From Cordylochernes scorpioides (lineage: Eukaryota; Arthropoda; Arachnida; Pseudoscorpiones; Chernetidae): DNA of 64,000 nt. The number at the start of each line of letters is the position of its first letter. Position 1 is the first letter of the stretch. The notes under the pieces are model-generated. The model saw only the letters and a list, made by a program, of their open reading frames with translations, did no database searches and was not told the origin of the DNA. Below are positions 2,964-53,620 of the stretch, piece by piece. The DNA lies in assembly GCA_030710605.1 (NCBI GenBank), contig CP092863.1, positions 105,448,099 through 105,512,098 of the forward strand, in the 5' to 3' direction. Position numbers and translations under genes: made by a program.

Positions 2964-3224
2964 TATATAATAACAATGATAATAATCCATATTCCCACGC
3001 ACACCAAGCAATAAGACCACAAGAGAGCAGTATGCAAAAAGACAGACGAGCTATGTATAGTGAATAAAATCATATATTTTATGGAATTCTCAAACCATAT
3101 TAACATACGCATAGCTCGGAAAACATGGAACTTGCTGATCTCACAATTATGGAGACCATGTCAAACTATGGTCCGGTAGCGTTCATTGATGGATTCCTTC
3201 AACCAGGAAAGGCAGGGGCTATTC

Positions 3225-3480
3225 TGACCGTTCACATGATCATTTTAAATAGCAGAGCACCATCTAGTGGAACAAAAATCAACTAAACGTTTATTTAGGC
3301 TTGTCCCATGATAAATTCAGCCAACCTAATTTCTCGATAAATAAGAAGCCCAACTACGAATTTATTAAGAAAATGCGTTGGCCAAATATAAGGGAACAGG
3401 TTAAATCAATATTTAGTTAATATCTGTTCCACTAGATGGCGCTCTACCATCTAAAAAGCTCATGTAAGCGTGGTCAGGAT
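3225..3480. repeat. FB-B foldback element, decayed
   Basis: Two inverted halves meet near 3330-3400. Both sides hold the family phrase CCATCTAGTGGAAC or its inverse, and the right half ends with GTGGTCAGGATATG. Segments with GCCAACCTAATTT and GTTGGCCAAAT pair. No hammerhead core survives in this copy. Confidence 0.55.
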
Positions 3481-3510
3481 ATGTATATTTCTATTTTTTA
3501 ATACAAATAT

Positions 3511-4354
3511 ATATAATACAATATAATGCGGTTTATGATTGTAGAACGACATTATTTTTTCCGTTTATCATTACTCTTCACAATTCATTCTTTCATACTT
3601 CATCCCTAAGGTTAGAAATAATCGTTATTTCTCCTTAAAATAAATTTTGATTTTTCGTTCAAAAGAAACACATGCGGGATAATTTTCAAATGTTGTTCTA
3701 CAAGTATATATAATACTTCAGAATATAACGACAATTGAAGAGGAGTGTCTTATAAGAAATATCATTCGCAAGCTTTCAGACGCATGCGTCCTTCTACAAG
3801 CTTTACAATGACAAAAAGTCATATAAGAGTCATAAGTAAATATAAAACTTGTATATTAATATAGGTAGACAATATACAGTGCTATTGACTATTGAGCAGA
3901 GAGCAAGAAGAGCAGGGGTCACATACTTGCCACAGGCTTCACTGTCCTGCGTCAGGGTGGAAAGCAGCTCCTGGAGCACAGGCAGAGAGAAGTTCTCAGT
4001 TGGGAAGACATTGGTAATCTTGGTACACAGGGCACGGGCTTGTCGACGGACTTCATGCTTGGAGTGCAGCAAGAGCATCACAAGGGCTTGGTAGAGGGGT
4101 TGAGAGCTTGGGTTGAGGCTCTTTGCATGGTCCAAGAGAAGATTTTCTGCCAGGACATCCCTGGACACTTTTATTTTTCCGTTTATCATTACTCTTCACA
4201 ATTCATCCTTTCGTACTTCATCCAAAAGGTTAGAAATAGTCGTTATTTCTCCTTGAAATAAATTTTGATTTTTCGTTGAAGGGAAACACATGCGGGATAG
4301 TATTTCAAATGTCGTTTTACAATCATTAGCCGCATTATATTGTATTGTAATATA
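3511..4354. mobile_element. TIR-bounded segment enclosing a GCN1-like exon
   Basis: Inverted termini of about 43 bp (3511-3553 and 4308-4354; shared core ACAATATAATGCGG) enclose 0.84 kb. Next to them lies a direct repeat of about 155 bp (3550-3705 and 4174-4320, both with CCGTTTATCATTACTC). The left copy by itself forms a complete short MITE. The right copy lacks its left end and abuts the exon exactly at its acceptor. Either a MITE pair captured a piece of host gene, as Pack-type elements do, or two MITEs inserted on each side of a resident exon. I favour capture because no other GCN1 exon is visible in 64 kb. Confidence 0.5.
3927..4167 (-). pseudogene. GCN1-like HEAT-repeat exon fragment
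   Basis: An open frame of about 80 codons on the minus strand has a far higher GC content than its surroundings and typical coding codon use. The translation contains LLLDHAKSL, YQALVMLLLHS, HEVRRQARAL and LPVLQELLSTL. These follow the order and spacing I know from the N-terminal third of GCN1, the ribosome-bound scaffold that activates the eIF2-alpha kinase GCN2. A consensus donor (GTATGT, 3926-3921) ends it. The acceptor side is poor: an AG at 4168-4169, or another at 4161-4162, preceded by purines, because MITE sequence starts there. It is therefore probably truncated at its 5' side and unlikely to splice. Assignment rests on recall of the family, not on a search. Confidence 0.55.
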
Positions 4355-4561
4355 CAGTGCGTTTATACGAGCATCTTATCCATATCTTCCTTAAACCTCA
4401 TCATAAAGGATAAATTATCAGGTACAGACTATAGAAGCAAAATCGATAATACAATATTGTAGCAACAATAACTATTTATTATTTTACATTAGTATTAATA
4501 AAGTATCATTTTTTATGTTTATATTTTAATACTCTGTAAACTCATTTTCTTATCTTTTTTT

Positions 4562-4912
4562 TTTTAAAGAAGACAGAGGCAATTTTGTACACACTTGGTT
4601 ATCTCGTATATCTTCAATAAAGGTCACTGTAATATCTTTCAGAGTTATTGTCTGAATCCCGATATACATGTTGAGAGGTACAACTTCCTTAAGTTTTGTC
4701 CATGAGTGTATCTTTCAGAGTTATTGTATGAATCCCGATATACATGCTAAAAGGTACAACTTCCTTAAGTTTTGTCTATGAGTGTATCTTTCAGAGTTAT
4801 TGTCTGAATCCCGATATACATGCTAAAAGGTACAACTTCCTTAAGTTTTATCCATGAGTGTATCTTTCAGAGTTATAGTCTGAATCCCGATATATATGCT
4901 GAGAGATAGAAC
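4562..4912. mobile_element. CACTCATGG MITE, partial
   Basis: The unique MITE segment (AGACAGAGGCAATTTTG...) is followed by four units of 76 bp in the orientation CATGAGTGTATCTTTCAG (near 4701, 4777 and 4853). The right terminal repeat is lost after 4912. Confidence 0.65.
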
Positions 4913-5171
4913 AATTTCTCATCTTTTTATCATTCATAGTTTGTTCTTGCCTTAAATAAATTGCTGTGTCACCCCGTAGATTGTCTTTCCTTTTTTTCCA
5001 GGTGGCAATATTGTAACGATTTAGTATAGCAAATAGAATCTTTGGGTAGGTTCACACCACGGATGACATCCCAGTTTTCCTAATTCTTTTCCAGTTCACT
5101 CATTGTATGGGATTCGTATTTTACTTTAACAGAAAAGCAATGGTATTAAATAGTTACATCTTCTATATATT

Positions 5172-5463
5172 AAAATTCGAAACTATTTAAACGCGTAAGA
5201 TTCTTTTTGAAATTGAGCAATTTCTGCTGCCCTTACTGCAATGAAAAAAATTAAAGGGAGGACCTGGCTCATCAGTGGTGAACCCTCCCAGCGATTTCGC
5301 CAGTTTAATCTACCATACCGCTGTTATATTGCATTTTTGGAACTTCCTTTTATAGTGATACTGTTGCTAGACTCTTGGAATTAATTATTCCATTGCAGTA
5401 AGTGCAGAAGAAATTGTTTAATATCAAAAAGAATCTTACGCGTTTAAAATAGATTCGAATTTT
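5172..5463. mobile_element. FB-C foldback element, complete copy
   Basis: Arms of about 73 bp (5172-5243 and 5391-5463) are inverted copies of each other, running from AAAATTCGAA through AACGCGTAAGATTCTTTTTG to TTACTGCAATG. The interior holds the permuted hammerhead core (5264-5322) and about 70 bp of AT-rich filler. There is no protein, so the element must use the machinery of another. The right flank GATAACAGATGGCGC recurs beside other copies, suggesting a preferred target or a longer element. Confidence 0.65.
5264..5322 (-). ncRNA. Hammerhead core in non-standard strand order (copy A)
   Basis: Read 5' to 3' on the minus strand: AGCGGT, cleavage base A, TGGTAGA, TTAAA, CTGGC, GAAA, TCGCT, GGGAGGG, TTCACCA, CTGATGA, GCCAG. 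Stem III is AGCGGT with ATCGCT (one G-U pair), stem II is CTGGC with GCCAG (perfect), and stem I is TGGTAGA with TTCACCA (six of seven). All invariant hammerhead core bases are present, but the GAAA strand comes before the CTGATGA strand. Activity is untested. Confidence 0.5.
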
Positions 5464-13127: not shown

Positions 13128-13300
13128 GTTAAACCTGTCTATAGCGCCCCCTCTCTATAGCGCCTCCCTCTTTATAGCACCCGATTTTAAATACGTAGTA
13201 CGATGCAATTTACATTAAAAGTGACCTGTTTATAGCACCCCCTCTTTATAGCACCCTATTTTGGTGAGTTCCGAGAGGGGGCGCTATAGACAGGTTTTAC
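13128..13300. mobile_element. MITE with CCTGTCTATAGCGCCCC ends
   Basis: Terminal inverted repeats AAACCTGTCTATAGCGCCCC (left) and GGGGCGCTATAGACAGGTTT (right) match over about 25 bp. The interior repeats the motif TTTATAGCACCC. The ends resemble pogo/Tigger-type termini; there is no coding capacity. Confidence 0.65.
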
Positions 13301-13334
13301 TATATAAAAATAAATGAACATATATAACATTGAA

Positions 13335-13560
13335 AAGAAGGGGCATTTCCTGATCGTGCAACTAAAAGTTTCTGATGGCTTGCGCCATCTATCGGAATAA
13401 ATATCAACTAATCGTTGATTTTTAATTATTCCAGAATTGGTTAATTCCAGAATTTATTAATCAAAAAACGGTATTTGGCCAATTCTGAAATAATTGAAAA
13501 AATCAACGAATAGTTGATATATATTCCGATAGATGGCGCACCATCAAGAAATGCCCTTTT
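13335..13560. repeat. FB-B related foldback
   Basis: Same family as 11870: GGGCATTTCCTGATCGTGC at the left, inverted TTCCGATAGATGGCGC at the right, around a TTGATTAATT-rich centre. Confidence 0.5.
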
Positions 13561-13654
13561 TATCAATTTATCCACCTGATCCAAGTACAAATTCACTTTT
13601 GTACTATTTCTTTTTTCATATATAACTTTATGATACATTAGCGCGCCATCTGTT

Positions 13655-13905
13655 ATGAAAATTCGAAACTATTATAGACGTGTATGATTCTTTTTAAAAA
13701 TAAAACAATTTCTACTGTCCTTACTGCAATGGAAAAATTAATGGGAGGGTCTCACTCATCAGTGGTGAACCCTCCCAGCGGTTTCGCCAGTTTAATGAGA
13801 GGGTTCACCACTGATGAGCCAGGCCCTTCCATTAATTTTTTCATTGCAGTAAGGACAGTAGAAATTGCATTTTTTTTATCATACGCATCTATAATAGTTT
13901 CGAAT
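13655..13905. repeat. FB-C foldback, rearranged copy
   Basis: Arms CTTACTGCAATGG and CATTGCAGTAAGG flank two S2-type hairpins pointing at each other: GGGAGGGTCTCACTCATCAG on the left and GAGAGGGTTCACCACTGATG on the right. The GAAA strand survives (complement GGTTTCGCCAG) but the cleavage-site strand has been replaced by the second hairpin. Confidence 0.6.
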
Positions 13906-14092
13906 ATATAACTTAGTTAAAATAAAAAAAGGAAAATTTCTGAAAATAAAATAGAAAAAAATATTTAACACAAAGCAATAACGCGCCATCTATACATATA
14001 AAATAAAAGGATTTAAAAGCGCGAATGTTTCTTTTATACATAAAACGAACTTCTACTGTCCTTACTGCGATGAAAAAATATATTGGGAGGGC

Positions 14093-14151
14093 TTGGCTCA
14101 TCAGTGGTGAACCCTCCCAGCGGTTTCGCCAATTTAATCCACCAGACCGCT
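14093..14151 (-). ncRNA. Hammerhead core in non-standard strand order (copy B)
   Basis: Mirror copy of 14665-14723: AGCGGT, C, TGGTGGA, TTAAA, TTGGC, GAAA, CCGCT, GGGAGGG, TTCACCA, CTGATGA, GCCAA. All three stems pair completely (one G-U in stem I). Confidence 0.5.
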
Positions 14152-14664
14152 TCTCAGAGCTCTAATATTGTATTGGATCATTCTGCTTTTATATGCTACA
14201 CTGAAGGATGGAATCTTAGAAATGGTTTTCAAGTAAACTATGGACATAAGCTTATAGGACAGTAGAATTGCATTCAAATATTTGCTTCGAGCAATGCTCT
14301 TCAGCAAACTATAAAGACAAGGCCATAAGGAATAAATTAACACAAAGCAATAACGCGCCATCTATACATATAAAATAAAAGGATTTAAAAGCGCGAATGT
14401 TTCTTTTATACATAAAACGAACTTCTACTGTCCTTACTGCGATGAAAAAATATATTGGCGCGTTATTGCTTTGTGTTAATTTATTCCTTATGGCCTTGTC
14501 TTTATAGTTTGCTGAAGAGAATTGCTCGAAGCAAATATTTGAATGCAATTCTACTGTCCTATAAGCTTATGTCCATAGTTTACTTGAAAACCATTTCTAA
14601 GATTCCATCCTTCAGTGTAGCATATAAAAGCAGAATGATCCAATACAATATTAGAGCTCTGAGA

Positions 14665-14723
14665 AGCGGTCTGGTGGATTAAATTGGCGAAACCGCTGGG
14701 AGGGTTCACCACTGATGAGCCAA
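14665..14723 (+). ncRNA. Hammerhead core in non-standard strand order (copy C)
   Basis: Stem III strand AGCGGT (14665-14670), cleavage base C14671, stem I strand TGGTGGA (14672-14678), TTAAA, stem II strand TTGGC (14684-14688), GAAA (14689-14692), CCGCT (14693-14697), GGGAGGG (14698-14704), TTCACCA (14705-14711), CTGATGA (14712-14718), GCCAA (14719-14723), then CCCTCCC (14725-14731). Stem III is 6 bp, stem I 7 bp and stem II 5 bp. GGGAGGG/CCCTCCC closes a hairpin that displays the CTGATGA strand as its loop. The G10.1-C11.1 and A15.1-U16.1 pairs and the GTC site sit where the hammerhead fold needs them. The connection between strands is not that of types I, II or III. Confidence 0.55.
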
Positions 14724-14819
14724 GCCCTCCCAATATATTTTTTCATCGCAGTAAGGACAGTAGAAGTTCGTTTTATGTATAAAAGAAACATTCGCGCTTT
14801 TAAATCCTTTTATTTTATA

Positions 14820-15574
14820 GAAAAAATAATGTTAAAATAAGTTTACACCATCTTTCTAACGCTCCACTGTCTGTAAAACTATTTAAAGACTTCAAAACAT
14901 TAAGTTGAGGCAATCATTTAAAAGAGAGAAAATAAAAGCATTACTTACAGATATATCTTCCAATTGACAAGTTAAAATTGGAATAATTAATGGTACAAAC
15001 GGCTTTATTAATTGACAAAACAAGCGAACACTATTGATCGTCTGCTTATAATTACCAATCTTCAGCTTTTAAATAAAAATCACTTTTCCAATTCTCTTAG
15101 AAAAGGGGGTTTGAAGCCATTAATACAAATTGGCAACCCTGAAAATTATCCGCATTACATTGTGTGTGTGTGACCTCAATATTTCTTTTTATGTATTTTA
15201 CAAAAAAAAAAATTGGCTTCCATTAAATTTTGAAACTTGATAGGCCGCATAAATTTTTGATCTTTTTTTTTTATTCTGAAAATTTATCGATTATTTTATA
15301 ATGACTATCATTATTATAATTTGAGAAAGTTGGGGAAGAGTTTTTGATGGATTAATTTAGGTATTAGGTTGATTAAGTATTAATCATACAAAACGATCAC
15401 GTTTATCTCTCTTATTTTCTTTATCTATATAAAGGCTAAAAATGTACAGAAGAGATAGAGAAAAGGCTAAATGAAGAATGAGATAGAGAAGCTGACTTGC
15501 TATTAATTTTTTAAAAATAGAAATAAGTTGTATGTCATTTATTTATAAAGCTAATATAAATATTCTTAATATAA
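14820..15574. other. No gene recognised
   Basis: AT-rich sequence with no element boundary that I can define. A pair of TTGACAAGTTAAAATTGG / TTAATTGACAAAAC words near 14960-15030 suggests a decayed inverted repeat, but too little remains to name it. Confidence 0.4.
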
Positions 15575-17687: not shown

Positions 17688-20600
17688 ATGTCAAGCCTTT
17701 ATCAAATAGAAAAATTAAATTCTGAAAATTTTGAAACATGGAAGATGCAAATGAAAATGATTCTAATTCATTCCGAACTTTGGGATTATGCAAATAGCAT
17801 AAGAATCAAGCCTGAAACCGAAGTAGAATCTGCTGCATGGGAGAAGAATGACCAGAAGGCGCTAGCAACTATAGTTCTAAGTTTAAGTCCTCCAGAGATA
17901 ATACACGTGAAGAGATGTAAAACTTCTGCAGAGGCATGGAAGCTTTTAAATGATGTGCATCAGCCAAAAGGGCCTGCAACTAAGGTTTTCCTTACGAAAC
18001 AGTTGATCCTCTTGAAGATGAATCCTAATGAAAGGCTGCAGGATTACCTTAACAAGTTCAGCAGTTTAGCTGACAGGCTGAGTGAAATGGATGCTCAAGT
18101 CCCAGAAGACTTCCTTTCTATCCTTTTATTATGTAGCCTTCCAGAGAGTTATGAAGGATTTAGAACTGCCATTGAAACTAGGGACAAGTTGCCGAACTTT
18201 GAAACTTTAAAAGTGAAAATGCTGGAGGAGGAAATTAGGCAAACTCAATTGAACGGCACAACTAATACCGAACAAGCTTTCCTTGGAAACCCAGAGAGAA
18301 AGATTTTTCCCAGCACATCAAAACCAAAGCCAAAGGGATTCCCATTTAGCTGCCACTTCTGTAGAAAAAAGGGACATAAAGCTGCCGACTGCAGAAAAAG
18401 AAAGTCCAGGAACCCTAAAAATGAAATGGTTTCGTCCTTTGGGACAAAATATTTGAGCAAACTTGGCGCAAATGAATGGTGTCTGGATAGTGGCGCAACT
18501 GCCCACATGTGCAGCTCAAGAGACTCATTCGATCATTTTGAGGAGACTGCACCAGTGAAAATTACACTGGCCAATGGTGGATTCATTGAAGCTCTGGGAA
18601 AGGGGAAGGTAAAATTGGAATGTTCGGGTAAAAACGGACCTGTAACCTTATCCTTGGAAGACGTGTTATTTGTTCCTGAATTGAACGGCAATTTGTTTTC
18701 CATCAGTAGGTGTACGGGCAAATATAATATCGTAAATTTCAAGTACAGAAAAGCTGAAATAGTGAATTTGCATACAAAAATTTGCATACAGGCCTATGAA
18801 AGGAATGGACTTTACATCTTAAGTCAAATTAATTGTCCTAAGGCATTAGCGACAAGAGAAATTTGCCTAGCTGGAGAGAAAAATTACGAAAAATGGCATA
18901 GTAGATTTGGCCATTTAAATTTACAAGATCTCAAAAAGCTAAAAATGCAAAATATTATTTACGGCCTGCCCAATTTTGATGTTAAAAATTTTAACTGTGA
19001 AGTTTGTTTGAAAGGTAAACAAACAAGGCTACCTTTTCAGAAAGAGTCTTTTACGAGATCAAGGGAACCACTGGAGCTGATCCATACTGATATTTGTGGT
19101 CCCATGAGAACAAAATCATTGGGTGGCGCCCTTTATTTTTCAACATTTATTGATGACTTCTCGGGATTTATCTTCACATTTATAATGAAATCGAGAAGTG
19201 AAGTATTTAAAGGATTTAGAATATTCAAAAATTATGCTGAGAAGCAAACCGGAAAAAGGTTGAAATGTATTAGGAATGATAATGCGCCTGAATACCTTAG
19301 CAAAGAGTTCAAAGATTACCTAGAAGGAGAAGGTATAGGACGTCAGCTCTCTGTAGAATATACACCTCAACAGAACGGTGTCGCTGAAAGAGCGAATAGA
19401 ACTCTACTGGATATGACTAGGTGCTTCATGATCGAAGGTGATTTACCTGAAACTTTATGGGCTGAATTGATACATACATCAACTTTTATCAGAAATAGAT
19501 GCCCGAGAAATAACGATTGTAAAACTCCACATGAGTTATTTACCAAAAGAAAACCTGTAGTTTCTCATTTAAAAATTATAGGAAGTAAATCGTTTGCCGT
19601 GAATAATAGGCCAAATAGATCTAAATTCGCACCTCGCAGTGAGGAATACAAGTTAATAGGGTATTTCACAGAATCTAAGGCATACAGACTTTGGAAGCCT
19701 GGTACACGTACAATTATAAAAAGTAGAGATGTACGTTTTATTGAACCAGAATTATCAAGAATTCGGAATGAAGTCATTGAAATCGATGTTAGTCCACAAA
19801 AAGATCCTTTTGTCAAGGAAATTCCTCTAGTTGAAGAAAAGGGAAGCACGTCCGAAGCTAAATCACAAACTGAAATTGAAAGTGAATCGGATCTAGAGAT
19901 GTCTGATTTAGTGGACGAGCCGTCAGAAAGTGAAGTGGTCATTTCTAGAAGAGGAAGAGGAAGACCAAGGTATATTAGAACGGGAAAACCTGGCCGACCA
20001 AGAAAGGAGTACCCTACAGCCAATTTGTCAACGCAAGAACTTCTAGCGGCGAAATACTTGCCAGATCCAAAAGACGCAGAGGAAGCGCTGTCTGGAAAAG
20101 ATTCTTATTTTTGGAAGAAAGCAATGGAGGAAGAGTTTGATTCCTTGATTGAGAACAAAACTTGGGAATTGGTTGATCCCCCTAAGAATCGAAACATCAT
20201 AGGAACCAAATGGGTATTCAAAACGAAATGCAATAGTGATGGTTCTGTTGAGCGCCATAAGGCTCGCCTGGTAGCAAAAGGCTATTCACAGCAGTACGGA
20301 ATAGACTACGAGGAAACTTTTGCCCCAGTAGTACGCCAAAGTACTATTAGAATGTTTTTAGCCTTGGCTGTTGAATACAACTTGATACTCCATCAGATGG
20401 ACGTTCAATCTGCTTATTTAAATGGAGAAATTAAAGAAGAGATTTATATGACACAGCCGGAAAACTTCGTCTCAAGAAAATATCCAGAGAAGGTATGTCG
20501 ACTCAAGAAGGCCATTTATGGGTTAAAACAAGCTGGAATAGTTTGGCATGAAAAGCTCGACAATGAATTAAAGAATTTGGGACTGAAGCAACTTCAATCT

Positions 20601-21609
20601 GACAATTGTGTCTATATCAAGCATGATGAAGGTATTCTCCTGGTGGCAATCTATGTTGATGATCTGATAATTGCGGCTGAAAGAGAAGACACGTTGAAAT
20701 CCTTTAAAGAAAGTATGAAGAGAATATTCAAAATAAAGGATCTTGGAGGGATAAATTGTTGCCTGGGTATAAGGATACAAATGAAAGAGGATGGTTCAAT
20801 ATCCATAGATCAAGAGAGATATATTGAAGAACTTCTGGCGAAATATAGGATGAAAGAGGCAAAGCCTATTTCTACACCCATGGACTCGAACTCCAAGTTA
20901 ACAAAAATTTCATCTATAGAAGGTGAGAATGAGCCAGTGAAAAAGGTAGAATACCAATCACTGATTGGATCATTGATATATCTCTCAGTGTCGACAAGGC
21001 CCGATATAGCCTATGCAGTTAGTGCTTTGGGACAGTTCAGTAATGATCCTAGGAGACAGCACTGGAATGCTGCCAAGCGTGTCCTCCGCTATTTGAAAGG
21101 CACCTCATGTTTGAGGATTACCTACAGGAAATCTAATGAGGCTCTTCATGGTTATGTCGACGCTGATTGGGGTGGAAACCTCGTGGATAGAAAATCTCAT
21201 ACGGGAATTGTTTACTTTTTGGCAAGAGGTCCAATAGCCTGGGAAATCGAAGAAGCAGCAGACTGTCACTCTTTCGAGCACAGAATCTGAGTACATCGCA
21301 CTTTGTGAAGCAGGAAAGGAGGCAGTCTACCTTAGAGCGCTGTTGGACGAGATGGGATTTGGTGAATTGCTGAATGGACCGACTGTTCTGAAGACGGATA
21401 ACCAGGGTGCTCAACAGCTGGCGAGAAATCCGGTTTATCATGCCAGAACTAAGCATATTGACATCAAATGGCATTACATCAGAAGCATTTGCAGCGATGG
21501 ACTTGTCGAGGTCGTCCACACACCAACCCAAGAAAATGTTGCCGACATCCTTACTAAAGGCCTACCAAGGTTTTTGTATGAAAAACACGTCACTGGATTT
21601 GGAATGTAG
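17688..21609 (+). pseudogene. Copia Gag-Pol polyprotein, one frameshift
   Basis: The ATG at 17688 begins a frame of 1200 codons. Domains in order: copia-type gag (1-200), zinc knuckle CHFCRKKGHKAADC (222-235), aspartic protease CLDSGATAH (active D267), GAG-pre-integrase HHCC finger (from H404), integrase catalytic D468, D531 and E567 (D-35-E), reverse transcriptase with YVDD at 989-992, and RNase H with YVDADWGG near 1157. At the G run 21241-21243 one extra base shifts the frame and a stop comes at 21288-21290. The remaining RNase H and C terminus are open in the next frame to the stop at 21607-21609, with STESEY and KHIDIKWHYI. Everything else is intact, so this copy became inactive very recently, or the extra G is a sequencing error. 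Confidence 0.93.
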
Positions 21610-22806: not shown

Positions 22807-25800
22807 AGAACATCAATTTGATCATTTACAAGGCCTGCAATTAGCCGATCCACAATATCAATATACCGCACCAATTGACATATTGCTAGGTGCAGATATT
22901 GCTTTTTCTCTATTCAAGGGAGCCATCAAATATGGGCATGAAGGTCAACCAAAGGCAATCAAAACACTATTGGGATGGTTGCTCTTTGGAGAAATTAAAA
23001 CCTTTCAAAAGAAATCCAGAAACTATTAAAAACTGCACACATTCAATTGTACGCTCAATAATTGGGAACCAATATTTTCCTTATGGGAAGAAGAAATCAA
23101 AACCAAACCTGATCCATTTGAAGATGATTTCAATGAAATTCATTTTAAGACAACTCATGAAAGAGAAACATCTGGTAGATACATAGTAAGATTGCCCTTT
23201 AAGGACCCCAGTTTAATTGGAGAATCAAAACCTCAAGCCATTAACTGTTTTTTGAGAATGGAGCAAATCTTGAAACAACAGCCCCAGGTATATCAGACCT
23301 ACAAGGATTTCATGCAAGAATACCTGGTTTTAGGCCACATGAATGAGGTGAAGGGAAATGGAAATGATCATAAGGCATTTTACCTTCCTCATCATCCTAC
23401 AATCAAAGAAAAAAGCTCTACCACAAAATTGCGAGTTGTATTCAATGCTTCTTCAAAAACAACAACAGGTTATTCTTTAAATGATATTTTACATACAGGA
23501 CCCAAGCTTCAAAAGGACATTTTCCCTTTGTTGTTAAGATTCCGATCTCACCCTATCGCTATATCTGCAGATATCACCAAGATGTACAGGCAGATTTTAG
23601 TACACCCAGAAGATACTCCGTATCAACGAATCATTTGGAGAGATGAATCAGGTCAGGGTTTAAAAGAGTATGAACTTAAAACCTTGACATACGGAACATC
23701 TTGTGCACCATTCTTGGCCATCAGGGTATTGAAACAACTGGCTCATGATGAACAAATTAGGTTTCCAACGGCAGAAGCCATTCTTAAATCAGAATTTTAT
23801 GTGGATGACTTGTTGACTGGTTGTGAAACTGTAGAAAATGGGCGCAAACTTATAAGAGAATTAGACCAATTGCTCCAAGCAGGCGGTTTTAAATTACGAC
23901 AATGGGCTTCCAATAAACCTACCATATTGGACACACTTCAAGAAACAGACAAATCAACCTTCTATGCTAATGTTGACAGGGAGAATACATTGGGAATAAA
24001 TTTATTAGGCATAAATTGGAACCCGAGGAATGATGAAATAAGATTGAGGAAAATAGAAATAAGCAAGAATGCCCCAACTAAGCGAAATATCTTATCCCAA
24101 ATGGCAAAAATATATGACCCCCTTGGTTGGTTTGCACCAGTGATGCTTAATATCAAGTTGATGATTCAGACATTATGGGCTGCAAAACTAACATGGGATG
24201 AGCCCATTCCAGTTAGATTACAAGAATCGTGGAAGGCATTACAAAATGATCTAGCATCATTACACCAGGTACAGATTCCTCGATGGATAGGACTGTTTGA
24301 GCCTGCAACTTATGAGATACATGGATTTGCTGATGCCTCACAAAGGGCATATGCTGCAATGGTTTATATCAAGATAATACATAATTCTTCAATACATGAG
24401 GTATATCTATTGGCAGCGAAAACCCGAGTAGCTACTTTAAAAACCACAACGACTCCACGCATGGAATTGTGTGCATCGCTATTGCTAGCTCAGCTGACTA
24501 GACTCGTGTGTACGGCTATGTCGTTGAATATAAACAAGGTTACATTGTGGTCAGATTCCACCATAGTGCTGAGTTGGTTGGCTTCAGAGCATAACAGATG
24601 GAAACCCTATGTTTCTAATCGGGTAAAGGATATACAAGAGCTAGTACCATGTCGTTGGATGCACGTCAAAGGAGAAGACAATCCTGCTGATCTTGCATCC
24701 AGGGGAATATCATTGGATCAACTGCTCGATCATGAGTTATGGTGGCATGGTCCACCATGGTTGAAAACAACATCACAACCCTATAACGACGCTATACCAG
24801 TGATAAATGAGAAATGCTTAAGTGAACAAAGAATTAAGACCAACTTATTTGTCAAAAAGAACTTATCTTATCCATTCATAACAAGATATTCATCATTGAA
24901 CAAATTAAAAAGGATAACAGGATGGATTTTTCGTTTCTTCTATAATTGTCGAAAACTTCTCGAAAGGGAAAAATCCGGAGCATTATCCATTGAAGAAATT
25001 GAGACCTCTTTCAACAGAATTATTCGATGTGCTCAACAAGAGGATTACTACATTGAATTGAAACAATTAGAGGCCTTTCAACCTTTAAGTGGGAAAAGTC
25101 CTTTAATAAAATTGAATCCTTTTCTTGATAAAGGTGGATTACTCAGAGTGGGTGGACGATTAAATAATGCCCTTTTGAGTTTTGATCAAAAACATCCAAT
25201 TATTTTACCTAAGGCAAATTATATTACTCAATTAGTAATAAGACATTATCATGAGAGACTATTACATGCGGGTGTACAATTAACTCTATCCGCCATCAGA
25301 GAAAAATATTGGATACCATCTGGACGATGTCTAATAAAACAAATTCTGTTTAAATGCATCAAATGCGCTAGATTTAGAACAAAGGCAGTACAACAACTGA
25401 TGGGCAATTTGCCGACATCACGGACCAATTGGACAAGACCATTCACTAAAACAGGAATTGATTTTGCTGGACCAGTGATTGTGAAAACATCGAATTTGAG
25501 AAATGCAAGTTGTGATAAGGCTTATATTGCATTATTTATCTGCATGTTTTCTAAAGCCATACACATAGAACTCGTTTCCAACTTAACAACAGAAGCCTTC
25601 CTGGCTGCTCTTCGGAGATTTATTGGCCGTAGAGGTCGACCGGCAGAAATAAAGACTGATAATGCAACTAATTTTGTCGGAGCTTACAAAGACTTAAGAA
25701 AGTTATTCAATTCAAACATTCATGACTTTGCTTCTTCAGAAGAGATCAAATGGAACTTTATACCTCCATCCTCACCTCATTTCGGAGGACTATGGGAGGC

Positions 25801-26341
25801 GGGAATAAAATCTGTAAAGTATCATCTACGTAGAATCGTGGGTAAAACTAAATTAACATTTGAAGAATTAACAACTGTGCTAACCCAAATAGAGGCATGT
25901 CTAAATTCAAGACCATTGTGCCCTCTAACTGATGACCCTGAAGACTTGAATGCGTTGACGGCAGGACATTTCCTCATTGGAATGCCATTGACTGCAGTCT
26001 CATCCCTAGTTAGAGAGGGCAGTTCCAGTCTTAAAGGAAGATGGCAATTGGTTGAACAGATCAAGACAGACTTTTGGAAAAGATGGTCATGTGAGTATTT
26101 TTCCAGACTACAGAACAGACCAAAATGGTTGAAACCAGTGGACAACATCAAGATTGGAACATTGGTTTTGTTAAAAGAGGACAACCTTCCTCCTCTCAAA
26201 TGGAGAATGGGACGGATCAATCAGGTGTATCCAGGAGAGGATGGGCTGGTACGCGTGGTTTCAATCAAGACGGCGGATGGAGACCTCAGAAGAGCTGTGG
26301 CCAAAGTTTGTCCTCTTCCACTTGACTGTCCTACTAGCTAG
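22807..26341 (+). pseudogene. pol: BEL Pol: RT, RNase H, integrase
   Basis: One frame runs from about 22800 to the stop TAG at 26339-26341, broken only by TAA at 23027-23029. Before that stop lie the protease end (DILLGADIAFSLF) and GWLLFGEI. The part from 23192 is 1049 codons: reverse transcriptase with SADITKMYRQI, YGTSCAPF and YVDD (23798-23809); RNase H with FADASQRAYAA, RMELCASLLLAQL and DSTIVLSWL; an integrase HHCC finger (HYHERLLHAGVQ ... CIKCARF); and the DDE core GIDFAGPV, KTDNATNF and GGLWEAGIKS. The C terminus has LVLLKEDNLPPLKW and the chromodomain-like tail usual in BEL. The start given is where the shifted frame enters; no separate ATG is expected. Confidence 0.92.
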
Positions 26342-26778: not shown

Positions 26779-28265
26779 CACTGGTGTCCAAAAAATAAGA
26801 AACTTAACCAATATTGAAATTTCTCAAAAGCTAATTTATTAACAAATATAAAATTTAGTATACAAATAGTTTAACCTATGGAGAATTTGACTAGCTATAT
26901 GAAAATAAAAAATATTTGAAATTATCAAATATGCAAATTATTACCAACATACCCAAAGCTAAGGTTCCAGATCTTAAAGAAATAATATATCAATAGGGAG
27001 TATGATCACCTCTAACAGCTATCAAGGTCTCACAGCGAGCCCTAATACTGTTTACCAGGCTTTGGAAGAGGTCCATGGGTAGTAAACCCCACTCCTCCAA
27101 TAGAGCAGTTCTTAGCTCAACGAGGGTTCTGGAAGAGGGGTGACGAGCTCCAATACGCCTCCCTAGGGCATCCCACACATGCTCTATTGGATTCAGGTCC
27201 GGAGATCTGGCTGGCTAATCCATCCTTCGAATATTCTCACTCTGGAGATATTCATTGACTAACCTAGCCCTATGCGGACGAGCATTATCGTCCATTAAAA
27301 TTAAATTGTGACCAATTTGATCTCTATAAGGTCTTAGATAGGGCTCAAGGATCTCGTCCCTGTACCTTTAGGCAGTTAAAGTGCCCCCAGAAAAAATGTG
27401 GAGGGGTGTGCGTCTGCTAGAACTGATGCCAGCCCAGACTAAGAGACTGCCCCCTCTAAAACTGTCTATTTCCCTGATGTTACTGGGATGATAGCGAGTT
27501 CCAGGCTCCCTCCAGATGAAAACTCGTCGAGAATCTGTTTTTAAACTAAATCTTGACTCGTTACTGAAGAGAACATTGGCCCACTGATCATGAGTCCAGG
27601 CGTGATGTTCCAAGCACCAATTCAAGCGGGCTCTCCTGTGAGCAGAGGTTAAAGGGATACAGACTATTGGTCGTCTTGCATAAAGAGCACCTTCGTGAAG
27701 CCTTCGGTAAACAGTTTGTCTTGAAATTCTCGTTCCAGTAGCACTTGAGAGTTCATTAGAGAGTTGAATAGCTGTCATCTCCCTATGGCGCTTGGCAGTT
27801 ACGACCAGATAACGGTCTTCAGAGGTAGCTGTTTTTCTTTTTCTACCAGAACCTTCTTTTCTTTTGATGGTTCCTGTCTCAATGAACTGTTTCCATATTT
27901 TGCTGACCACAGATTTATACACATTTAGCCATTTTGCTACTTCAACTTGTGATTGCCCTGCCTCCATTCTTCCAACAGCTCTCCATTTTAAATCATCTGC
28001 TAAAATTTTTCGTAAACTCATAATTAAGGATTAAATAAAATCATAATTGGACAATTCTTAGATTGGGGTAAACGACACGCCAAATAGCACACTTATAAAG
28101 ACAAGCAAAAATTTGCCTATTTTCAATTTTACCGAATCGAATGGTTGCGATAAATAAATTCTACAACTTAAAATACCTAATTAAATTACTTTTTAGCTTT
28201 TAGCGTTGTATATTTTAAAACATATCATTAAAAAACAAAAGTTTCTTATTTTTTGGACACTAGTG
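26779..28265 (-). mobile_element. Tc1-like DNA transposon, inactive
   Basis: 1487 bp between TA dinucleotides (26777-26778, 28266-28267). The terminal inverted repeats are 27 bp with one mismatch (26779-26805, 28239-28265), starting CACTGGTGTCCAAAAAATA, the classic Tc1 end. The transposase gene fills the middle on the minus strand. The element sits 30 bp to the right of the BEL copy and does not overlap it. Confidence 0.93.
26990..28021 (-). pseudogene. Tc1-family transposase, two stops
   Basis: The ATG at 28019-28021 and the stop near 26990 delimit 343 codons, the normal length for Tc1 transposases, with no frameshift. The N terminus has a paired-type helix-turn-helix region (QSQVEVAKWLNV, VVSKIWKQF) and GRKRKTA. 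The catalytic part has NVLFSNESRFSL, MDDNARPHRA and SPDLNPIEHVWD. Stops: TAA at 27368-27370, where Gln is expected, and TAG at 27215-27217, where Trp is expected. The first catalytic residue, Asp in active family members, is Asn here (27560-27562). All three changes are transitions of the C-to-T/G-to-A kind. The protein is dead, but the ends might still be moved in trans. Confidence 0.9.
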
Positions 28266-51860: not shown

Positions 51861-52110
51861 TTAAACTATTTTTATTGTGTATAATTCTTTTTAAAATAAA
51901 CCCATTTTCTATTGCCCTTACTGAAATTATAAATTAATGGGAGGGTCCGGCTCATCAGTGGTGAACCCTCCCAGTGGTTTCGACAGTTTAATCTACCATA
52001 CCGCTGTAAATATTGTACATTTGTCTGTTTTGCTTTTATAAGCATACTGAAGCTGACCTCTTGGAAAAGTTATTTTAAATGAAATATTGGCATAAGCTTT
52101 GAGGACAAGT
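51861..52110. mobile_element. FB-C foldback element (copy D)
   Basis: Left arm TATTGCCCTTACTGAAATTA, permuted hammerhead at 51947-52005, then an interior (TGCTTTTATAAGCATACTGA) similar to that of the copies at 14.1-14.7 kb, and a right arm reduced to GAGGACAAGTAGAAAT. Confidence 0.55.
51947..52005 (-). ncRNA. Hammerhead core in non-standard strand order (copy D)
   Basis: Minus strand: AGCGGT, A, TGGTAGA, TTAAA, CTGTC, GAAA, CCACT, GGGAGGG, TTCACCA, CTGATGA, GCCGG. The core words are intact. Stems II and III each carry mismatches, several at former CG dinucleotides, as expected from methyl-C decay in an old copy. Confidence 0.45.
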
Positions 52111-52929: not shown

Positions 52930-53620
52930 AGATCATACTGCAATGATAAAATTTGTTGAACAAGAGGGTTTGACTAATCAATTGTGAACCCTCTCAGAGG
53001 TTTCGCCAATTTAAGTAATGTATATAGTTGTTTAATTTGCAGTAACACATGAAAACTCCGAGGATAAGTTTCTTTATTTGAAAGAATATTATAAAGAAAC
53101 TTATCCTCTGATGTTGCAGTAACACATGAAAACTCCGAGGATAAGTTTCTTTATTCGAAAGAATATTATAAGGAAACTTATCCTCTGATGTTGCAGTAAC
53201 ACATGAAAACTCCGAGGATAAGTTTCTTTATAATATTCTTTCGAATAAAGAAACTTATCCTCGGAGTTTTCATGTGTTACTGCAACATCAGAGGATAAGT
53301 TTCTTTATAATATTCTTTCGAATAAAGAAACTTATCCTCGGAGTTTTAATGTTTTACCGCAACTTATACATCAGAGGATTCTATTTTACGAGTTGTTTAA
53401 TGAGAACAAGAGGGCTTGACTAATCAATTGTGAACCCTCTCAGAGGTTTCGCCAATTTAAGTAATGTCTATAGTTGTTTAATTTGCAGTAACACATGAAA
53501 ACTCCGAGGATAAGTTTCTTTATTCGAAAGAATATTATAAAGAAACTTATCCTCGGAGTTTTAATGTTTTACCGCAACTTATACATCAGAGGATTCTATT
53601 TTACGAGTTGTTTAATTGTT
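52930..53620. repeat. Palindromic array built on an FB-C relative
   Basis: Two decayed FB-C cores (52935-53040 and 53405-53500, GTTTGACTAATCAATTGTGAAC) flank repeated hairpins. The hairpin unit ACTCCGAGGATAAGTTTCTT with its inverse AAGAAACTTATCCTCGGAGT occurs at least five times in both directions, joined by CGAAAGAATATTATAAAG. The FB-C cores still pair at stem II (TTGGC with GTCAA), but CTGATGA has become TTGATTA. Confidence 0.65.

Follow-up and report, generated by a model that had tools for sequence, protein, structure and literature searches.

What is a hammerhead ribozyme with rearranged strands doing in an animal chromosome? The question is raised by positions 14665-14723 of a stretch of 64,000 nucleotides (nt) from the pseudoscorpion Cordylochernes scorpioides (contig CP092863.1, positions 105,448,099 to 105,512,098 of the forward strand), the whole of which we call the window. 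There, a first-pass annotation made from the letters alone had pointed to a hammerhead core in a strand order that circular permutation cannot produce. We find that this motif belongs to the type-SGC hammerheads of Eckert et al. 2023 (PMC10085705), bridging stem included. The strand order is therefore known already, and what is new is its setting in a chromosomal retroelement. The reading that we favor, with a probability of roughly three in four, is that the ribozyme processes the RNA of a non-coding, retrozyme-like retroelement with a unit of ~372 bp, and that the enzyme of a Penelope-like element (PLE) copies this RNA into a DNA break from both sides.

A base-by-base check of 14665-14723 found all of the invariant hammerhead bases together with stems I, II and III, in agreement with the annotation. 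All parts of the motif lie on the forward strand. The S block (14665-14678) carries the 3′ strand of stem III (14665-14670), the cleavage base C14671 and the 5′ strand of stem I (14672-14678). It is followed by a linker between stems I and II, TTAAA (14679-14683), and by the G block (14684-14697), which is made up of the 3′ strand of stem II (14684-14688), GAAA (14689-14692) and the 5′ strand of stem III (14692-14697). The C block (14705-14723) contains the 3′ strand of stem I (14705-14711), CTGATGA (14712-14718) and the 5′ strand of stem II (14719-14723), and it is flanked by the two strands of a bridging stem that links stems I and II, GGGAGGG (14698-14704) and CCCTCCC (14725-14731). The block order is thus S (cleavage strand), G (GAAA) and C (CUGAUGA), which is indeed beyond the reach of circular permutation. 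The required CUGANGA, GAAA, U16.1-H17, A15.1-U16.1 and G10.1-C11.1 are all present. One G-U pair lies within stem I, and the linker of 5 nt becomes one of 7 nt if only five stem I pairs form. The annotation had pictured two abutting hairpins with loops joined via stems I and II, and the nested fold does contain both hairpins (z = −2.14; 5 of 200 shuffled sequences fold equally well). Site-specific self-cleavage after C14671 is the predicted activity of this structure.

The annotation had also held that no example of such an order was described, and this is contradicted by the type-SGC class. The available part of PMC10085705 (this source and the others given below by PMC number are cited from the part of their text that was available) describes 583 predicted type-SGC sequences, reported in 2023 from environmental sequence data. 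Five natural examples were tested and all cleaved in vitro; a sixth, without a cleavage site, did not cleave, as expected, and all four stems were required in the one example tested by mutation. The class is marked by a short linker, usually of 3 nt, that joins stems I and II, and by the fourth stem, which bridges these two; in a few examples, nothing separates stem III from the bridging stem. The window motif shares the order S-G-C, the invariant core, stems I-III and the bridging stem, and like those few examples it has a link of zero nt between stem III and the bridging stem. It differs in its I-II linker of 5 nt, and in a stem I mismatch in two of its three subfamilies (B and C; stems I, II and III are all paired in subfamily A, to which this copy belongs). 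The main difference lies in where the motif is encoded, as it resides here in chromosomal repeats, whereas the available text states that type-SGC was found in no genome of known organisms.

A literature search that leaves preprints and most subscription journals uncovered showed, among the matches listed, no further publication that deals with genomic SGC hammerheads. Within the same coverage, ‘type-SGC’ with ‘hammerhead ribozyme’ led to PMC10085705 only, and ‘non-circular permutation’ led to that paper and otherwise to structure-comparison software. A canonical hammerhead was considered and dropped, as the block order is wrong and Rfam offers none: it gives no hammerhead in the window, nor among the 30 matches listed for 13300-15300 (E up to 10). 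The annotation had suggested a kissing-loop or domain-swapped hammerhead, or else a canonical order formed only between copies of a multimer. Neither a domain-swapped dimer nor a fold restricted to multimers is needed, since the SGC order is known and its examples cut in vitro, but the attention to multimers was well placed, as many copies prove to be tandem arrays.

Could such a core arise by chance? A descriptor scan covered all six block orders at strict and relaxed settings. At the strict setting, the window holds only the core at 14665-14723 and an inverted twin (14151-14093), both in SGC order, and the relaxed setting adds one further SGC copy (5323-5264). The twin, an identical type-SGC core on the reverse strand at 14093-14151, was overlooked in the annotation; the two cores share one insertion, 13965-14819. 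Across the loci fetched from the genome, all 121 core matches are in SGC order, with the qualification that these loci overlap and most were fetched for the motif. As a control, 5,582 Markov-1 windows yielded 4 strict cores of any order, of which 2 were SGC. Extrapolated from these two, ~15 strict SGC-like cores are expected by chance genome-wide, although the stems at 14665-14723 exceed the strict minimum. A single core match therefore proves little. We consider the core real because its matches number in the tens of thousands, fall into three subfamilies and include compensated changes.

The genome search that established these numbers covered 2,619,359,433 bases in 24 contigs. The repeat unit is ~372 bp long, with head-to-tail periods of 372, 371 and 368 bp, and contains one hammerhead and no reading frame. 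The 51-nt ribozyme pattern of subfamily A matched 43,581 times with up to 3 mismatches, and the patterns of subfamilies B and C matched 24,701 and 9,668 times at the same tolerance; the reversed control gave 0 matches for each. The A and B counts can overlap because an intact B copy has 3 differences from the A pattern, and matches to A or B together with those to C come to at least ~53,000. A profile search of 10 arbitrarily chosen 10-kb stretches found 11 diverged family matches, located in 4 of the stretches. A putative subfamily D was rejected as a lineage, having a single match in the genome.

Several further copies lie in the window. The copy at 5264-5323 (reverse strand) belongs to subfamily B and has an SGC core with cleavage base A, and a decayed subfamily B copy at 51939-52005 (reverse strand) has broken pairs in stems II and III. 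A B-like fold-back copy at 13734-13840 is without an S block, and its putative inner joint apparently falls inside the ribozyme. Two copies of a related subfamily occupy 52963-53460 on the reverse strand; their G and C blocks are altered (TTGATTA for CTGATGA), no S block was seen in them, and a palindromic repeat array adjoins. Upstream of the core, a TATAAAAG box at 14623-14630 (forward strand) starts 48 nt before the cleavage base. The box is also found in subfamily B and may act as a promoter.

In a comparison of one A unit with one B unit, the ribozyme is better conserved than the unit that contains it: identity is 69% over the whole unit, and the ribozymes agree at 63 of 67 positions (Fisher p = 1.4e-7, gaps being scored as differences; the B unit was picked for an exact ribozyme match, which somewhat favors the ribozyme). 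The 4 differences consist of a compensated stem II pair (T-A to C-G), a change of the free cleavage base from C to A, and one change that weakens stem I. Between A and C, compensated changes are found at pair 2 of stem I and pair 2 of the bridging stem (both G-C to A-T), the latter reading GAGAGGG/CCCTCTC in subfamily C, together with one deletion and two more changes that affect stem I and the linker. If the same number of substitutions is placed at random, such compensation arises with a probability of 0.023 for A-B and 0.0006 for A-C. Across the A, B and C patterns, CTGATGA, GAAA, T16.1/A15.1 and G10.1/C11.1 are constant, and the cleavage base is only C or A. Exact matches were also counted for two of the four types of a stem I pair in subfamily C (G-C 42, A-C 25), a count not used as a test.

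Covariation of the three stems, proposed in the annotation as a check, is found at the subfamily level in stems I and II, and in the bridging stem as well; stem III is taken up below. Individual copies were compared in an alignment of 28 rows, drawn from 140 motif matches in loci that overlap (29 rows carrying an S block, less one that duplicated another after trimming). Repeated sequences, copies without an S block and strongly decayed copies (e.g. L030+2051, L011+1884, W43092 and the two at 53 kb) were left out. This alignment has 14 two-sided cells against 3.9 when shuffled (0/500) and 5 two-sided pairs against 2.9 (37/500). In a smaller set of 13 hand-picked rows, from which divergent copies such as L057-4225, L072-2720 and L071-2434 were omitted, there are 14 two-sided cells against 5.2 (0/500) and 6 two-sided pairs against 2.7 (4/500). 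Because other divergent copies were left out, these pair counts lean toward well-preserved copies. As the rows are also related and selected, we treat the covariation as support and not as proof.

How the element inserts is recorded in the anatomy of its copies. The insertion in the window (13965-14819) consists of a reverse-strand arm (13965-14458) and a forward-strand arm (14456-14819) placed back to back, each reading outward and each with one ribozyme. Its outer ends fall at unit positions 372 and 340, so that a 32-nt ‘tail’ of unit positions 341-372 is present at one outer end only (13965-13996, reverse strand). Ten nt resembling a target-site duplication, ATAGAAAAAA, lie at 13951-13960 and recur at 14817-14826 (both on the forward strand), where the first 3 nt are within the element end; this likeness is weak and A-rich.

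The same anatomy is found in a sample from contig C1, which comprises the insertion in the window and those near the first exact matches to the A pattern. The mapping of copies required ≥88% identity and gaps <25 nt. Among 39 mapped copies, 24 are divergent, with a reverse-strand arm followed by a forward-strand arm; the other 15 have a single orientation at this filter, and they include cases (L006, L016) that may be divergent if it is loosened. In every one of the 24 divergent insertions, one outer end falls between unit positions 367 and 372, its counterpart between 338 and 353, and the two are never alike. Inspection by eye showed that both flanks of L001 recur at L004 and L007, and one of them, reversed, at L005; the asymmetry holds in 22/22 insertions without L004 and L007, and in 21/21 also without L005. 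The ends typically differ by 32 nt, ranging from 19 to 34 over the sample.

Joints and flanks were compared in 22 insertions (L005 among them) with arms of between 31 nt and 4.4 kb. In half of these (11/22), the flanks strictly outside the element share 7-13 nt, compared with 19 of 462 mismatched flank pairs sharing at least 7 nt. The inner joints lie more than 1 nt apart between the two arms in 20/22 insertions, and for this reason most arms did not arise by snap-back. A snap-back palindrome was rejected on these grounds, L023 and L038 being the only two insertions whose joints coincide to within 1 nt. One insertion occurs several times with the same flank, at L041, L042 and L045 and inverted at L043, and it seems to be carried inside a larger repeat because the flank recurs too.

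Many of the sampled copies are divergent tandem arrays, and these bear on the template that was copied. Units are 98.9% identical within each of two long arrays (L031 and L032) and 99.0% identical between arms. Between one array and the other, identity is 92.6%, and single units from other loci are 85.7 to 98.7% identical among themselves and to the arrays. In neither long array do the two arms have a substitution in common. The nine shared variants of L031 all fall in the reverse-strand arm, several of them between units three apart, and the only shared variant of L032 is a length difference at columns 307-308 that spans both arms. The three units of L040 are identical. In L031, a block of three units (3101-5332) is apparently duplicated in tandem within the reverse-strand arm. 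Given that the arms share one sequence type and that no substitution is common to the arms only, the simplest candidate for the template is a single circle, although a uniform linear multimer could replace it.

The genome also contains fragments of PLEs, the putative source of the copying enzyme. PLE-type GIY-YIG signatures occur at 4 places in 348 kb of fetched, partly overlapping loci, and the two in locus L052 both exceed the Pfam cutoff for GIY-YIG. At L052:1671-4080, PLE endonuclease fragments are arranged reverse strand then forward strand, the same topology as that of the ribozyme element. At L052:5215-5412 lies a fold-back pair with CTGAAGA...GTTACCGAAACGTC, which we take to resemble the minimal hammerhead, of type I, that PLEs carry.

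In work on a PLE protein, both DNA strands were cut and extended with initiation inside the RNA, and two start sites set an optional tail of 30-40 bp (PMC11167929). PLEs have further been described with inverted pseudo-long terminal repeats (pLTRs), a 31-bp tail at one end, and duplications of 8-10 bp that only some of the copies have (PMC3846280). The element resembles them in its inverted arms, its tail at one end and its variable target duplications, and its typical end difference of 32 nt matches the PLE tail. Unlike PLEs, its unit has no reading frame, and PLE hammerheads are of the minimal type I (PMC7229834).

A second likeness is to the animal (non-LTR) retrozymes, tandem repeats of 150-450 bp with type I hammerheads (Cervera and de la Pena 2020; PMC7229834). 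Tandem units in this size range with one hammerhead each, high copy number, target duplications when present and PLEs in the same genome are common to both. As in animal retrozymes, the target duplications (7-13 nt here) exceed the 4 bp of plant retrozymes. The hammerhead is of type SGC here and of type I there, and divergent two-armed arrays are not mentioned in the available text of PMC7229834, where ‘inverted’ occurs 0 times. Because of its type-SGC hammerhead, we describe the element as apparently working like a retrozyme and do not file it as a classical one.

These likenesses suggest a copying cycle. Transcription of a tandem array would start just upstream of a ribozyme, from the TATAAAAG box, and each SGC ribozyme would cut after position 17 to release unit-length RNA. 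A host ligase could then close this RNA into a circle, as in the type I retrozymes of animals (PMC7229834). A PLE-encoded reverse transcriptase/endonuclease would break AT-rich DNA and use each of the two DNA ends as a primer, starting at unit position ~372 on one and ~340 on the other. Copying may circle the template several times and so produce tandem arms, and joining of the two cDNA arms would leave a divergent insertion with tandem arms.

Other explanations account for parts of this picture. Self-cleavage could be real and the template a linear multimeric transcript, with long arrays growing mainly by unequal recombination, which we regard as possible if doubtful. The three-unit duplication in one arm of L031 fits this, as does the finding that unprocessed RNA was the dominant template of one PLE in vitro (PMC11167929). 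Harder to accommodate are the single sequence type across both arms of each long array and the identity of the three L040 units, and mirrored template units predict substitutions shared from arm to arm, of which there are none. We consider it unlikely, and clearly more so than a linear template, that the RNA structure is kept for binding of the reverse transcriptase while the hammerhead core is inactive or incidental. Such a role would agree with the weakened stem I of subfamilies B and C, and with PLE insertion being unchanged by ribozyme mutants (PMC11167929). It would leave unexplained the constancy of the catalytic letters and the restriction of the cleavage base to C or A across all three subfamilies, as well as the compensated pairs of stems I and II, which are pseudoknotted.

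The divergent arms also resemble the long terminal inverted repeats of a fold-back DNA transposon or miniature inverted-repeat transposable element (MITE) moved by a transposase. That origin is very improbable in view of target duplications that vary in length where a fixed one would be expected, ends that differ by 19-34 unit positions in 24/24 insertions, and arms with a variable number of tandem units. Least credible of all is a chance assembly of hammerhead-like letters in an unrelated repeat, to which we give next to no weight: a few SGC-like cores are indeed expected in a genome of this size, but this one is conserved in three subfamilies against the 69% background identity of A and B, with compensated changes.

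Several observations count against our preferred cycle of self-cleavage, circularization and PLE-driven copying. Stem I is short in B, where pair 5 is A-C, and in C, which has a deletion and an A-A opposition. Two-sided changes in stem III occur only in lone copies, that of D being found once in the genome, and several rows of the covariation alignments are lone decayed copies. Neither alignment has an excess of further pair types (18 against 18.4 shuffled, 382/500, in the 28 rows; 17 against 15.5, 67/500, in the 13 rows). With one ribozyme per arm, the insertion at 13965-14819 cannot excise a unit itself. The homogeneity of arrays is clear only for diverged ones, because units from different loci reach 98.7% identity; recombination also extends arrays, as the apparent L031 duplication indicates, and linear multimers could serve as template instead of circles. 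On the side of the enzyme, inspection of a single locus (L052) by eye revealed no PLE sharing the element's ends. In the one PLE studied, ribozyme mutants left insertion in vitro unaffected, and the start sites were alike on both strands (PMC11167929), whereas the ends here are unlike in 24/24 insertions.

At odds that we would put only slightly better than even, this element is the first chromosomal home of an SGC hammerhead and gives it a testable role, in which a retroelement of tens of thousands of copies makes circular RNA and its insertions record two-ended, rolling-circle target-primed reverse transcription, with two polymerases starting ~32 nt apart. A DNA-encoded family with a plausible copying mechanism makes such a role for type-SGC ribozymes accessible to experiment, and suggests that a rearranged ribozyme can drive a retroelement that passes through RNA circles. 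Thousands of natural variants are on offer for structure-function work, and the end asymmetry is a clue to how a PLE-type enzyme may prime on both DNA ends.

Other mobile elements share the window with this family. A Copia-type reading frame of 1200 amino acids (RVT_2, gag, integrase) spans 17688-21290, and a BEL/Pao-type reading frame of 1049 amino acids (Peptidase_A17, integrase) spans 23192-26341. A fragment of a Tc-type transposase (HTH_Tnp_Tc3_2) is found on the reverse strand at 27368-28021. Elements of these three kinds, like the size of the genome, would be expected of an animal. Finally, a long hairpin at 13379-13541, which has below-cutoff matches to several plant and animal microRNA models, is probably a fold-back element.
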